Both the position numbers and the translations under genes were made by a program. Below are positions 2,477 through 56,084 of a stretch of 64,000 nucleotides of DNA, one piece after another. This stretch comes from Paenibacillus sp. (GTDB taxonomy: Bacteria; Bacteroidota; Bacteroidia; Bacteroidales; Muribaculaceae), in assembly GCA_023663345.1 (NCBI GenBank), contig JAMPHR010000002.1:1-64000 (forward strand). The letters run 5' to 3'. The stretch's first letter is position 1. Every line of letters starts with the position of its first letter. The notes under the pieces were generated by a model. The model searched no databases. It saw only the letters and a list, made by a program, of their open reading frames with translations, and was not told the origin of the DNA.

Positions 2477-2574
2477 TTCCGCTACGCGGAAGGTTATAAG
2501 GTTATTTTCCGCGATGCGGAAGGTTATAAAGGAAAAAGGTTATGAGGTTATTGATTGGCCTCGTAACCTTTTTT
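2477..2574 (+). repeat. Variable-stem hairpin plus octamer array, ending in a terminator (copy 1)
   Basis: Two hairpins with the same stem and different loops (TTCCGC-tac-GCGGAA at 2477-2491, TTCCGC-gat-GCGGAA at 2507-2521), each followed by GGTTATAA-type octamers. The last part folds as GGTTATGAGG (2538-2547) against CCTCGTAACC (2559-2568), followed by six T residues. It therefore looks like the panB terminator. The second half is repeated at 3314-3378, on the other side of the HigBA cassette. Confidence 0.75.
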
Positions 2575-2622: not shown

Positions 2623-2988
2623 ATGGATTCCAAAGACTCTCTTCCGCAATATATACGCATTATCTATCGCAGTGCCGAATTTGATGCGTTCATGGCTACG
2701 CTCTCGCCTAAGGTGCAGACTAAATTCGACTATGTGATGAATGTTATTGCGACCATCTATAATGTACCTACAAAATTTGTAAAGCATCTCGAGAATACTG
2801 ACCTGTATGAGATGAGGGTATCGGTCGGAAATAACGAGTATCGGACGGTCTTGTTTGCGATAGATAATTCCAGCGTGATAGAGGCCAAGAAAATATTGCT
2901 GTTGAACGGATTCCTAAAGAAAGATACCCGCGATTATCGCAAACAGATAGATAAAGCAAAAAATATACTTAAAGAATTTGAATCATGA
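2623..2988 (+). CDS. higB: RelE/HigB-family toxin of a type II toxin-antitoxin pair
   Basis: 121 residues from the ATG at 2623; the reading frame is open further upstream, but that part overlaps the promoter. The protein resembles the RelE/ParE/HigB fold: IRIIYRSAEFDAFMATLSPKVQTKF at the start, then DLYEMRVSVGNNEYRTVLFAID, where the arginines fit the RNase surface, then KKILLLNGFLKKD. Members cleave ribosome-bound mRNA and are neutralised by the partner antitoxin. The gene order is toxin first, as in HigBA, and the stop overlaps the antitoxin start (ATGA at 2985-2988), so the two are translationally coupled. The naming as HigB rests on gene order and the XRE partner; the exact toxin subfamily is an inference. 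Confidence 0.8.
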   Translation: MDSKDSLPQYIRIIYRSAEFDAFMATLSPKVQTKFDYVMNVIATIYNVPTKFVKHLENTDLYEMRVSVGNNEYRTVLFAIDNSSVIEAKKILLLNGFLKKDTRDYRKQIDKAKNILKEFES

Positions 2989-3308
2989 TGAAATTAAACC
3001 TTGATAAATTAGAAAAACTGCCTACGTATAACGACCGTCTGGATAAACAATATGGTGAGCCGGGGAGTGTGGAGCGCGAGCAATTTGATGAGGAATCAAT
3101 CGCATGGTTCTATGGAAAGATGCTCAAGGATCGTCGTAAGGAATTAAAACTGACTCAAAAACAGGTGGCGGAAAAAATAGGCCGGGAACAGAGTTATATC
3201 GCACGGATAGAGAATGGGAAGGCTGATATTCAATTGTCGAGTTTCTTCCGTATCGCGGCCATACTCGGAATACAGTTTGTGCCTACATTCATGAATGTGA
3301 TACGATAG
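2985..3308 (+). CDS. higA: XRE-family antitoxin (HigA-like)
   Basis: 107 residues. The C-terminal two thirds is a classical helix-turn-helix of the Cro/C1 type (KDRRKELKLTQKQVAEKIG, then REQSYIARIENGKADIQ). The N-terminal 45 residues are charged and probably bind the toxin. Its likely job is to neutralise the upstream RelE-like toxin and repress the shared promoter at 2587-2618. The start overlaps the toxin stop by four bases; a second ATG follows at 2988, so either codon could be used. The gene is followed directly by another copy of the hairpin/octamer repeat that ends as a terminator. Confidence 0.85.
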   Translation: MMKLNLDKLEKLPTYNDRLDKQYGEPGSVEREQFDEESIAWFYGKMLKDRRKELKLTQKQVAEKIGREQSYIARIENGKADIQLSSFFRIAAILGIQFVPTFMNVIR

Positions 3309-3313
3309 CATTA

Positions 3314-3378
3314 TTCCGCTACGCGGAAGGTTATAAAGGACAAAAGGTTATGGGGTTATTGGCCTCGTGACCTTTTTT
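3314..3378 (+). repeat. Hairpin plus octamer array ending in a terminator (copy 2)
   Basis: TTCCGC-tac-GCGGAA (3314-3328), then GGTTATAAAGG. Next GGTTATGGGG (3346-3355) pairs, with wobble pairs, against CCTCGTGACC (3363-3372), followed by TTTTTT. It is a close direct repeat of 2507-2574, so the HigBA cassette sits between two near-identical terminators. Confidence 0.75.
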
Positions 3379-3414
3379 GTGGATTTCACTGTATGGTGTA
3401 AAAATGTATTTTCT

Positions 3415-4208: not shown

Positions 4209-4241
4209 GCCTACCTCCAAAATAAATGTAATCTATTTTTG

Positions 4242-4272
4242 CAAAGATACGCTTTTATAATTTATTATGCAA
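4242..4272 (-). promoter_or_regulatory. Promoter of the GNAT toxin-antitoxin operon
   Basis: On the minus strand TTG (4270-4272), a 20-base spacer, then TATCTTTG (4242-4249). It is followed by a short leader with GGAGG before the ATG at 4208. Confidence 0.75.
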
Positions 4273-4353
4273 TTGATATAGGCATAAATACCTATAAAAG
4301 CATGTGGTATAATACTCGCGGGAGGAGGTGCGGGACGGGTTGGTGTGCGGGGA

Positions 4354-5028
4354 TTAGTCGAGGAGGTCGGGGCGGAGGCGGCGGGTGCGCTCGAGGGCTT
4401 GCTCGTGCTTCCAGTCGTCGATGCGGGCTTTGTGGCCCGAGAGGAGCACGTCGGGGACACGCCATCCCTTGTATTCGGCGGGGCGGGTGTAGACGGGGGG
4501 AGCGAGGAGGTTGTCCTGGAAGGAGTCGCTGAGGGCGCTCTGCTCGTCGCCGATGGCTCCGGGGATGAGACGTACCACGGCGTCGGCGATGGCTACGGCG
4601 GGAATCTCGCCTCCGGTGAGGACGTAGTCGCCGATGGAGATTTCCTTGGTGATGAGGTGCTCGCGTATGCGATAGTCCACGCCCTTGTAGTGGCCGCAGA
4701 GAATGATGAGGTTCTCGCAGAGCGAGAGCGAGTTGGCCATGGGCTGGTCGAAGGTCTCGCCGTCGGGGGAGGTGAATATCACCTCGTCGTAGTCGCGCTG
4801 GGATTTCAGTTGGGCTATGGCGCGGTCGACGGGTTCAACCTGCATCACCATTCCGGCCTCGCCACCGAAGGGGTAGTCGTCGACCTTGCGGTGCTTGTTG
4901 GTGGTGTATTCGCGTAGGTTGTGCACGGCTATCTCCACTAAGCCCTTGTCCTGGGCGCGCTTGAGTATCGAGCAGTTGAGGGGAGATTCCAACATTTCGG
5001 GGAGAACGGTGAGAATATCTATACGCAT
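4354..5028 (-). CDS. trmD: tRNA (guanine37-N1)-methyltransferase
   Basis: 224 residues from the ATG at 5028 ([12 protein letters not shown]). TrmD methylates G37 next to the anticodon of proline, leucine and arginine tRNAs with S-adenosylmethionine and prevents +1 frameshifting. The SPOUT trefoil-knot signatures are visible: [15 protein letters not shown] near residues 52-66, [16 protein letters not shown] near 110-125, and [13 protein letters not shown] near 129-141, plus the C-terminal [18 protein letters not shown]. Length is normal to slightly short. It has its own promoter and no rpsP/rimM/rplS neighbours, so the classical ribosomal operon is not kept here. Confidence 0.96.
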
Positions 5029-29961: not shown

Positions 29962-30535
29962 TCACGTATGCGGGTCTATTATAGGACGTCTTCGACGCCC
30001 GTTTGGGTATGCGATTCATTTTCCCCGCGCCTCGCCGGACGGCGCAAATCTGCCCTGACGGGCAGTTTGCTTGTCAGGCTCGTGGCGGGGCTACGATTAC
30101 ATCGCCCCGTTCGGGGCTTAAAGGGATTGAGGTCTGCGGATGGTTTGCTGGCTATAATTATATCGCCCTATTCGGGGTTAAATGGTTACAGAGCCTGCGG
30201 GTGGTTTGATGGTGGGGGCTATGATTGCATTGTCTTGTTCGGGGCTAAATGGGAGCGGAGCCTGTGGGTGGTTGGATGGCGGGGGGTATGATTGCATTGT
30301 CCCGTTCGGAGCTTATATCCGCAATATGACGGCCACGTTTGGACGGATTCGATGGTATAAATTCCGCAGGATCACGGTGTTATAAGCCCCGGAGGGGCGC
30401 GGTAATTATAGCCCCACCACGAGGGGACGCGTAAATCGCCCGGTAGGGCAGAATTACGCGTCGCCGAGGTGTGGGGAATATGGGATGAAATAAAAATAGG
30501 CGTCGAAGACGTCTGTTAATAAACCCGTTACGTCG
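29962..30535. mobile_element. Large inverted-repeat element with internal tandem repeats
   Basis: The left part (29962 to about 30100) is repeated as an imperfect inverted copy at about 30395-30535. The most exact stretch is GACGTCTTCGACGCC (29985-29999) against GGCGTCGAAGACGTC (30499-30513). Shared inner parts include GCCCTGACGGGC-like, GCCACGAG and TAATTATAGCCCC-like stretches. Between the arms lie four degenerate 61-68 base units (30091-30316). There is no open frame of credible protein, so it looks like a non-autonomous element or a folded RNA locus. It fills most of the 711-base gene-free gap. Confidence 0.6.
30091..30316 (+). repeat. Four tandem degenerate repeats of the 'attacatcgcccc' motif
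   Basis: Units begin at 30091, 30152, 30219 and 30287, spaced 61, 67 and 68 bases. Each starts ctatgattacat-like and contains a GCCCCGTTCGGGGC-like palindrome that degrades along the array. The unit also appears at 47-80 and, inverted, at about 30381-30412. Confidence 0.65.
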
Positions 30536-39192: not shown

Positions 39193-39246
39193 GTTTATGG
39201 GTTTATAAGTTTATAGGTTTATAGGTTTATAGGTTTATGGGTTTAC
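39193..39246 (+). repeat. Octamer tandem repeat (GTTTATRR), about seven copies
   Basis: GTTTAT begins at 39193, 39201, 39209, 39217, 39225 and 39233, with GTTTAC at 39241, an exact 8-base period. It lies in the leader of the SIMPL gene. The same octamer occurs near 52765 and 56054. Confidence 0.75.
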
Positions 39247-47967: not shown

Positions 47968-47984
47968 TCCTCTAAATTAAAAAA

Positions 47985-48060
47985 CTCCTCTATACTCTAT
48001 ACTTCCCCCCTCTATACTAAAAACTCCCCTCTATACTCTATACTTTCCTCTCTATACTTA
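47985..48060 (+). repeat. TCTATACT short-repeat cluster
   Basis: TCTATACT starts at 47989, 47996, 48011, 48030, 48037 and 48051, with pyrimidine-rich linkers (cttcccccc, cttccc-like). It fills the gap between the fusion gene and the DUF4271 gene. No function is apparent. Confidence 0.65.
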
Positions 48061-48067
48061 TAAAACT

Positions 48068-52698: not shown

Positions 52699-52705
52699 AT
52701 TTTAT

Positions 52706-52804
52706 TTAAGCTAACGCTTAAAGGTTATAGGGTTATAAGGTTAGGAGGTTGTAGGGTGGGAGGAGTTTATGGGTTTATAAGTTTATTGGTTTATAAGTTT
52801 ATGG
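52706..52804. repeat. Variable-stem hairpin and 8-base-period array (plus-strand unit)
   Basis: TTAAGC-taac-GCTTAA (52706-52721), then GGTTATAG, GGTTATAA and degenerate octamers from 52723. These merge without loss of phase into GTTTATRR copies beginning at 52765, 52773, 52781, 52789 and 52797. No protein gene fits. The facing minus-strand unit is at 52857-52922. Confidence 0.7.
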
Positions 52805-52856
52805 GGGGTGGTAAAGCTTTGCTTAATCGGTTAAAAAAGCAGAAAGCACTGCCTTA

Positions 52857-52922
52857 ACCCCATAACCTCATAACCTTTGTCCGAAGGACAAATAACCTTA
52901 TAACCTTTGCCCGTAGGGCAAA
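52857..52922 (-). repeat. Variable-stem hairpins and octamers immediately after hflX
   Basis: Read on the minus strand, directly from the hflX stop: TTTGCCC-tac-GGGCAAA (52906-52922), GGTTATAA, then TTTGTCC-ttc-GGACAAA (52876-52892), then GGTTATGA and GGTTATGG. Stem bases change together, while the octamers stay constant. It could also pair with the plus-strand unit at 52722-52748. Confidence 0.7.
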
Positions 52923-54137
52923 TCAGATTTCGTCGTACTTCTGGAAGAGGAAGTCGTTGTAGGGGAATCGGGTGAGGTGTATCTCCTTAGCACGCTCGTA
53001 GAGCATCTGTTTCAGCTCGTCGATATTGCGTCCGGTCTTGGCCGAGATGAACACGCAATCGTGGGGCAGACGTGTCATCCACATCTTCTTCATCTCGTCG
53101 AGCGAGATGTTCTCGCGTGTGCGCGGGGTGAGGTCGTTCTCATCCTTCTCCACGTGGGTAAAGGCGTCGATCTTGTTGAACACCATGATCATGGGCTTCT
53201 CGGCGCCGTCGCACACCTCGCGGAGCGTCTTGTCTACCACTTCGATCTGCTCCTCGAAATGCGGGTGGGAGATGTCGACCACATGCACAAGCAGGTCGGC
53301 CTCGCGCACCTCGTCGAGTGTCGATTTGAACGAGTCGACAAGATGGGTGGGGAGCTTGCGTATGAAGCCCACGGTGTCGGTGAGCAGGAATGGGAGATTG
53401 TCGATTATCACCTTGCGCACGGTGGTGTCAAGGGTGGCAAACAGCTTGTTCTCGGCAAACACATCGCTCTTGCTCAGCACGTTCATCAGGGTTGACTTGC
53501 CGGCGTTGGTGTATCCCACCAGGGCCACGCGGGTGAGTTTGCCACGGTTTTTGCGTTGCACGGCCTTCTGCTTGTCAATGGAGCGCAGCTCCTCCTTCAG
53601 CAGTGATATCTTGTTGAGGATGATACGGCGGTCGGTCTCGATCTGGGTCTCACCCGGGCCTCGCATACCTATACCACCGCGCTGACGCTCGAGGTGGGTC
53701 CACATGCGGGTGAGTCGGGGGAGCAGATACTGGTATTGCGCAAGCTCCACCTGGGTCTTGGCGTTGGCTGTGCGGGCGCGCTTGGCAAAGATGTCGAGGA
53801 TCAGGCTCGTGCGGTCGAGGATCTTCACCTTGAGCTCGCGCTCGATGTTGACCACCTGCTTGGAGGTGAGGTCATCATCAAAAATGGCCATGCCTATATC
53901 GTTGTCCTCGATATAGGCGCGTATCTCCTCGAGTTTACCCTTGCCCACGTAAGTGCGCGGGTTGGGGTATTCGAGTTTCTGGAGAAAAGTTTTGACGGTC
54001 ACGGCTCCGGCTGTATCGGCCAGAAACGCGAGTTCGTCGAGGTATTCGCGGGCTTTCGCCTCGTTCTGTTGGTTGCTTATGAGTCCCACGAGCACTGCAC
54101 GCTCGGTGATCTCTTCGCTTATAATCTGATCAATCAT
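52923..54137 (-). CDS. hflX: Ribosome-associated GTPase HflX
   Basis: 404 residues. HflX splits stalled 70S ribosomes during stress. Order: N-terminal HflX domain (VGLISNQQNEAKAREYLDELAFLADTAG, then PNPRTYVGKGKLEEI, FDDDLTSKQVVNIERELKVKILDRT), the ARTANAKTQVELAQYQYLLPRL and RQRGGIGMRGPGETQIETDRR linker helices, then the G domain with GYTNAGKSTL (G1, near 205), DTVGFIRKLP (G3) and VFNKID (G4). The C-terminus has CVFISAKTGRNIDELKQMLYE. It is downstream of and close to the WecA-type transferase gene. The stop is followed immediately by hairpin/octamer repeats. Confidence 0.96.
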   Translation of the reverse strand: MIDQIISEEITERAVLVGLISNQQNEAKAREYLDELAFLADTAGAVTVKTFLQKLEYPNPRTYVGKGKLEEIRAYIEDNDIGMAIFDDDLTSKQVVNIERELKVKILDRTSLILDIFAKRARTANAKTQVELAQYQYLLPRLTRMWTHLERQRGGIGMRGPGETQIETDRRIILNKISLLKEELRSIDKQKAVQRKNRGKLTRVALVGYTNAGKSTLMNVLSKSDVFAENKLFATLDTTVRKVIIDNLPFLLTDTVGFIRKLPTHLVDSFKSTLDEVREADLLVHVVDISHPHFEEQIEVVDKTLREVCDGAEKPMIMVFNKIDAFTHVEKDENDLTPRTRENISLDEMKKMWMTRLPHDCVFISAKTGRNIDELKQMLYERAKEIHLTRFPYNDFLFQKYDEI

Positions 54138-56021: not shown

Positions 56022-56084
56022 TTCAGCTACGCTGGAGGTTATAGACTTGTGAAGTTTATGAGTTTATAAGTTTATAGGTTTATA
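56022..56084 (+). repeat. Hairpin plus octamer array downstream of ferritin
   Basis: TTCAGC-tac-GCTGGA (56022-56036), then GGTTATAG (56037-56044). Octamers in the same 8-base phase follow, up to GTTTAT copies at 56054, 56062, 56070 and 56078. It is the same family as at 2477, 3314 and 52706. Confidence 0.7.

Follow-up and report, generated by a model that had tools for sequence, protein, structure and literature searches.

The gap at 52699-52922 raises the question of what kind of element joins a hairpin of changing stem to an array of octamers, and how copies of it come to lie between genes. The window, by which we mean the whole stretch of 64 kb that was analysed, is the first 64 kb of its contig in a host assembly of 2.64 Mb (22 contigs, 86.6% complete). 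A preliminary description had listed five loci (2477, 3314, 52706, 52857-52922 and 56022), and we found a paired hairpin with GGTTAT or GTTTAT octamers at all five. The features of the window are as follows.

2477..2491, + strand: hairpin TTCCGC-TAC-GCGGAA, 2 nt past the stop of the ketopantoate hydroxymethyltransferase gene
2492..2505, + strand: two GGTTAT octamers
2507..2521, + strand: second hairpin, TTCCGC-GAT-GCGGAA, a copy additional to the five loci
2522..2551, + strand: GGTTAT octamers of the second module
2532..2574, + strand: octamer pair with its complement and T6, the shape of an intrinsic terminator (RNA fold of 2470-2580, z -8.6)
3314..3328, + strand: hairpin TTCCGC-TAC-GCGGAA, 5 nt past the stop of ORF 2985-3308
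3329..3359, + strand: GGTTAT octamers
3343..3378, + strand: terminator shape built of octamers, with a T run
39193..39245, + strand: GTTTATRR array without a hairpin
52699..52922, no strand assigned: complete insert in the gap between a GTPase gene (52923-54137, - strand) and a polysaccharide deacetylase gene (start 52698, - strand)
52705..52722, + strand: terminal hairpin TTTAAGC-TAAC-GCTTAAA, 6 nt from the deacetylase start codon
52723..52744, + strand: two GGTTAT octamers and one GGTTAG
52765..52804, + strand: GTTTAT octamers
52862..52875, - strand: GGTTAT octamers behind the inner hairpin
52876..52892, - strand: inner hairpin TTTGTCC-TTC-GGACAAA
52892..52905, - strand: two GGTTAT octamers
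52906..52922, - strand: terminal hairpin TTTGCCC-TAC-GGGCAAA, abutting the stop codon of the GTPase gene
56022..56036, + strand: hairpin TTCAGC-TAC-GCTGGA, one of whose pairs is T-G, abutting the stop of a ferritin-like gene
56037..56083, + strand: single GGTTAT unit, then GTTTAT octamers

The hairpins at 52705 and 52922 are opposite ends of a single convergent insert that fills 52699-52922. Along the minus strand the stop codon is followed by hairpin TTTGCCC, octamers, hairpin TTTGTCC and octamers, and the opposite side consists of hairpin TTTAAGC, octamers and then the GTTTAT array. The RNA fold of this insert has two end hairpins and a long array-against-array stem (z -5.8), while in the fold of 2470-2580 both neighbouring hairpins merge into a longer stem and do not form two separate ones. 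The octamers had been described as kept in strict 8-base phase, which is correct within each run and incorrect between GGTTAT and GTTTAT runs. At the two places for which one common phase had been claimed, the runs are offset by 2 bases modulo 8 (52723-52804; 52723 and 52731 against 52765-52797) and by 1 base modulo 8 (56037-56084; 56037 against 56054-56078). Placement right after a stop codon was confirmed for the hairpins at 2477, 3314, 52922 and 56022 (2, 5, 0 and 0 nt), but not for that at 52705, which lies 6 nt before a start codon.

Other repeats share this window. The stretches 2507-2577 and 3314-3381 are direct repeats of hairpin, octamers and terminator (86% over 72 columns) that bracket a Gp49-like gene (PF05973) and an HTH gene at 2623-3308, likely a toxin-antitoxin pair. 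A third array type (CTCTATACTCTATACTTCCC) is found between two genes at 47969-48067, and a TAATTACTAATTGC array with a 7-base unit occupies the equivalent gap of the related genome G117. A second family of dispersed repeats, with GGGGCTACGATTTCATCGTCCC-like sequence, occurs at 29978-30513 of the window, at 4230-4371 of locus L040, and in L065 and L074.

The motif is abundant in the host genome, where GGTTATRRGGTTAT has 87 sites and GTTTATRRGTTTAT has 86, with 0 for the reversed control of each; the whole-genome search proposed earlier thus places it far above chance. The DNA studied comprised the window and 45 stretches picked around array matches, together about 0.39 Mb. Rfam 15, searched over the element at gathering score, returned a tRNA in L049 as the sole match in six sources, and a search of phages and plasmids with the insert gave 0 matches. 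Viral contigs gave 46 single matches of GAAGGTTATRRGGTTAT, only 1 with a hairpin, which we took as chance. No description of such repeats in Muribaculaceae was found in the literature outside most subscription journals; the term GUUAU is absent from the accessible part of the RbpB paper (PMC11697453), which offered no lead for the repeat.

The association of hairpin and array is close. Under a strict rule, in which the hairpin ends at most 3 nt from the first unit of an array that starts with GGTTAT, 50 of the 67 such arrays in the fetched host DNA have an abutting hairpin, compared with 1.3% of random positions in the same DNA. A looser hairpin rule gave 60 of 79 arrays versus 4.4% of random positions, and arrays starting with GTTTAT had a hairpin in 8 of 45 cases under that rule. 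At the 67 GGTTAT arrays we counted 49 perfect stems, 1 with a mismatch, 0 with G-T deviations only and 17 without a hairpin; the 56022 copy with its T-G pair lies outside this count. In several of the 17 the hairpin is displaced upstream by one unit, and at least three of them (L038, L057, L058) resemble worn hairpins. The preliminary description had depended on other copies being paired as well, and 49 of 67 are perfectly so.

A total of 88 hairpin modules were found, of which 7 were dropped for a missing second octamer core and 81 kept. As modules were selected by the octamer after the hairpin, the GGTT or GTTT that follows is fixed by selection. The 81 modules contain 41 different 5' arms and 60 different hairpins. 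Their outermost pair is T-A in 80 of 81 and their second pair T-A in 74 of 81, and stem pairs 3 to 6 include all four Watson-Crick types.

A longer non-coding repeat of about 0.5 kb or more, containing ATGTCAAGGGGCTCTTGCCGAGC and about 71-96% identical between copies, is present in 15 copies (L032, L036, L037, L039, L040, L043, L059, L063, L066, L067, L068, L070 twice, L071 and L075). At least one hairpin module is found in 14 of the 15, the copy at L043 being without. Many copies border contig ends or 100-N scaffold gaps, which may conceal something longer.

Paired changes in the stems had been read as a sign of selection for structure. An alignment of 21 hairpins of 15 nt (18 distinct) has two-sided change at three pairs, but its rows were chosen for perfect pairing and it is therefore no independent test. 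A fairer one is given by the longer repeat, of which 14 copies (13 distinct) were aligned by their flanks. Here 90.6% of 117 cells were paired versus 88.7% in shuffles, one pair changed on both sides (G-C to A-T, 3 rows), 3 cells were U-G, and 11 of 117 were unpaired, 8 of these at the innermost pair. The covariation score was modestly above the shuffled one (0.128 versus 0.094), and two of five measures were not above shuffles. With pairing nearly all-or-none and covariation this modest, the step from paired stem changes to selection on RNA does not follow. Much of the stem diversity is the diversity of separate inserts.

Position with respect to genes was counted with a simple gene caller that misses some starts and short genes. 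On these calls, 51 hairpins are outermost in their gaps, 34 facing stop codons and 17 facing start codons. Among the former, 24 lie within 3 nt of the stop or overlap the gene (five overlap the gene end); of the latter, 6 are within 10 nt of the start codon. The core of the preliminary description, a dispersed family at gene ends whose stems change yet stay paired, therefore stands, on the strength of the 81 modules, their 41 stems, the junctions and these positions. The 46 gaps with elements separate 36 co-oriented, 9 convergent and 1 divergent gene pairs, compared with 223, 26 and 27 among all 276 pairs of the same stretches. Modules face both ways in 10 of the 46 gaps and one way only in 36.

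Hairpins that abut stops differ from internal ones. Unique stems were found in 16 of 23 stop-abutting hairpins and 2 of 20 internal ones, in 2 of 7 on the start side and in 8 of the remaining 17, the 14 copies of the longer repeat being left out; the contrast of stop-abutting with internal hairpins has p 1.3e-4, in a post hoc comparison noticed before testing. The former have long, mostly gene-specific stems, and the latter share the stock stems TTCGGC, TTCCGC and TTCAGC. At L057 near 3077 (minus strand), a gene reads through the hairpin to a TAA stop inside the octamer GGTTATAA, and its C-terminus differs from that of its G240 relative.

Such a distribution might indicate an RNA element selected at each gene end, one that protects the mRNA 3' end or tunes translation termination and in which only the fold matters. 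The closeness to stops, the longer and gene-specific stems there and the two-sided pair changes are all in keeping with it. In addition, translation is stated in part of PMC12306157, citing its reference 17, to be lowered by E. coli REPs that lie less than 16 nt from a stop. However, the nearly all-or-none pairing with 0 of 67 G-T-only stems speaks against such a device, the two-sided changes in the 15-nt hairpins come from rows picked for pairing, and the neighbouring hairpins at 2470-2580 merge when folded. The copies before start codons are left unexplained by a pure 3'-end device, and arrays are absent at the same genes in relatives (see below). We therefore consider selection for an RNA element rather unlikely, although it is the strongest of the alternatives.

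Transcription termination would be another function for an element between genes. The octamers with their complement and T6 indeed give terminator shapes at 2532-2574 and 3343-3378, and convergent genes flank 9 of 46 element gaps versus 26 of 276 pairs overall. However, the TTT...AAA palindrome has the polarity of a terminator on neither strand. We found hairpins of at least 7 bp starting within 3 nt of a stop at 16 of 295 gene ends, in stretches picked for arrays. These 16 were found regardless of what follows: 14 run into GGTTA (one after an extra G), the remaining 2 run into ATAGTATC and TGAGAGGG, and a T tract follows in 0 of 16. They thus lack the stem-loop with T tract of an intrinsic terminator, to which the two array-based shapes of the window are exceptions. 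A T tract was likewise seen in 0 of 81 modules, a result largely built in by the octamer-based choice. A motif for array complement with a T run, which misses 3343-3378, matched twice in the host stretches, in one case with no clear stem. That the elements as a class are terminators is very improbable.

Comparison with relatives speaks to how the copies arose. At the reported site the host has an insert of 224 bp, where the two genes are 12 bp apart in G240 and overlap in G130. The insert 52699-52922 is absent from G130, G240 and G153, and the equivalent place in G117 is occupied by a different hairpin-array insert. Seventeen further sites, picked by hand, were compared with G130 or G240, and an array was found in these relatives at 0 of 17. 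Both flanks were aligned and adjacent at 16 of the 17, the exception being L074, where one side carries an additional gene in the host. GTTTAT arrays alone occupy three of these host sites (L044, L050, L069). Because the relatives hold no array there, stem change within one element cannot be traced at these orthologous sites. At L044 and at a second site in L042, a GTTTAT-only array in the host corresponds to a hairpin-array insert in G117.

The host gaps with arrays exceed those of G130 by a median of 158 bp (15 gaps) and those of G240 by 113 bp (6), compared with 60 bp (16 gaps) and 95.5 bp (8) for gaps without arrays (one-sided p = 0.026). The excess of the host in gaps without arrays means that the difference in length is partly general. 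A MITE would have terminal inverted repeats and a target-site duplication; the reported site has convergent ends, and a duplication was not recognisable, because the relatives are about 78% identical and the intergenic gaps do not align. In a tree of five genomes (7,940 aligned positions), G117 pairs with G240 with support 1.0. Since G117 has 74 sites and its tree partner 0, shared places were not simply inherited without loss.

On this evidence, we believe that the elements probably form a non-coding family of dispersed palindromic repeats that behaves like a REP, REPIN or BIME element and has spread by insertion between genes. The unit would consist of a hairpin (5' TT, a variable stem, mostly a 3- to 4-nt loop and AA at the 3' end) and tandem GGTTATRR, often continuing into GTTTATRR. 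Such units would have spread through the genome by insertion into short intergenic gaps, either alone or in convergent pairs whose hairpins form the outer ends and whose arrays lie between them.

Growth of gaps without dedicated mobility has to be weighed against this proposal. Neutral gap growth and replication slippage at hairpins, with template switching that copies the arms from each other, might yield perfect arms without wobble and local tandem copies of modules, e.g. TTCGGCTTCGCCGAA three times at L058. The L045 hairpin duplicates the end of its gene, and in purC (L051) the 5' arm is in the coding sequence and the stop codon in the loop. The purC case is ambiguous: comparison with 25 relatives showed a conserved leucine that fits a native 5' arm, but a hairpin starting with TTT in that frame would often give leucine. 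A test like that of purC had no clear outcome at L053, whose gene tail is variable. At L046 the hairpin lengthens the gene, which runs at least 2 codons beyond the ends seen in 17 relatives; the 5' arm was therefore brought in, contrary to slippage. Slippage also leaves unexplained how one octamer follows unrelated stems at dozens of places in several genera. Finally, agreement between a stem and the adjacent gene end is hardly more frequent than in shuffled pairs. Templating of stems by the gene end, as a general rule, was rejected: matches to the preceding 60 nt were of at least 6 nt in 18 of 67 hairpins versus a shuffled mean of 14.3, and of at least 7 nt in 7 versus 3.6, and L045 alone stands out (13 nt). 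We regard slippage as an improbable origin for the family.

Insertion, the reading we prefer, can be set beside the distribution in other genomes. A site was found in 54 of 297 genomes of the family, mostly one to three sites each, with high counts in the host (87), G117 (74), G046 (42), G204 (36), G272 (29) and G277 (27), lower ones in G208 (11), G096 (7) and G101 (7), and 0 in G240. In the order, 65 of 393 genomes had a site, G464 (51) and G586 (13) being high; the reversed control also gives as many as 12 in single genomes of the order (G474, G569), and little can be read into an isolated count that high. Junctions elsewhere were checked at the first-listed places of each genome. Hairpins with other stems abut 10 of 11 arrays in G117, 6 of 7 in G204 and 3 of 4 in G277; in G208, whose loops are longer, the strict rule gave 2 of 9. 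They are rare or absent at the arrays of G046 (0/4), G101 (0/5) and G272 (1/7). Array and hairpin are therefore separable, the octamer being shared and the stem local. With longer loops allowed, the 28 hairpins of G117, G277, G204 and G208 include 10 situated no more than 4 nt after a stop and 9 no more than 9 nt before a start codon.

REPs are associated with Y1 transposases, and the presumed agents of movement for REP-like repeats are tyrosine transposases that recognise a tagged hairpin. A Y1 transposase gene (Y1_Tnp) was found in four of the five genomes with hairpin-arrays (G117, G204, G277, G208), and none in the fifth, the host, whose assembly is 86.6% complete. Among five other genomes searched, two had Y1_Tnp (G153, G170) and three had none (G130, G240, G034). 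Four Y1_Tnp loci were fetched and the surroundings of two (L288, L289) inspected. The G117 gene is not flanked by the hairpin-octamer repeat, and a link between Y1 transposase and the repeat is possible. L288 of G153 has a Y1 transposase-like gene whose flanking repeats contain GTAGCCCCGGCCATGG; gene and repeats look like a classical RAYT with tagged palindromes.

REPINs, reportedly, are two inverted palindromic units that make one larger foldable insert in P. fluorescens. The convergent hairpin-array ends of the host fold together likewise, but both orientations occur together in only 10 of 46 gaps, and the hairpins are separated by tandem octamers. Cyanobacterial STRR sequences are intergenic arrays of 7-8 bp units in several word families, and are not known to have a fixed hairpin at the array start. 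The resemblance to the host repeat lies in intergenic arrays of short units.

The likeness to REP and BIME elements, as portrayed in sections of PMC3733652, extends to short palindromes that occur many times between genes (here 81 modules in about 0.39 Mb), to stems that vary among copies, to A-T pairs at the first two stem positions (a trait of the CGTC families), to inverted dimers and mosaics, and to the location of some copies near stop codons. REPs have an unpaired GTAG or CGTC at one palindrome end, according to the same sections of PMC3733652, whereas these tags precede the host hairpin in 1 of 81 modules; CTAC or GACG follows in 0 of 81, where the flank is fixed by module choice. Unlike REPs and BIMEs, the host hairpins are joined to octamer arrays, and no Y1 transposase was found in the host. 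The BrickBuilt MITE of Porphyromonas gingivalis, in the portion of PMC4596501 available, has a 23-nt tandem unit with fixed leader and tail, 19 copies in one strain and distances of 49 to 591 nt from genes. It resembles the host repeat in being intergenic, species-limited and from Bacteroidales, with a tandem array inside an element with flanking parts, and differs from it in that the host repeat has 8-nt units, variable hairpins and positions often 0-3 nt from stops. A repeat that is present in one genome and absent from its relatives, is numerous in few species and forms mosaics and inverted pairs bears the marks of REP, BIME and REPIN elements.

As the junction TT...AA|GGTTAT is constant and the stem is not, we infer recognition by shape and junction. 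An enzyme that spreads the units would recognise the AA-GGTTAT junction and the hairpin formed by single-stranded DNA, and not the stem letters, as tyrosine transposases do for REPs. A further conceivable mechanism, to which we give little weight, is that the stem is regenerated by copying, in which an enzyme or replication process reads TT...AA|GGTTAT and rebuilds the arms from each other by fold-back or arm conversion. If true, arm copying would give each new boundary a perfect, wobble-free stem of nearly unlimited sequence while the octamer array stays fixed across genera. For the host mRNA, a hairpin at the stop codon might as a side effect hinder terminating ribosomes or 3' exonucleases, and array-against-array stems between genes and an occasional terminator might form. 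Effects on translation at the stop codon are plausible by analogy with the E. coli REPs.

The finding thus describes a patchy repeat of the Muribaculaceae, a gut family, with an octamer-array junction, no tag, and stems that vary both among copies and among genera. If it is mobile, the family either uses a Y1-type tyrosine transposase in a new way or needs another enzyme. The repeat rewires gene boundaries, as it splits tightly packed gene pairs, places a hairpin at the stop codon and at times provides a terminator.
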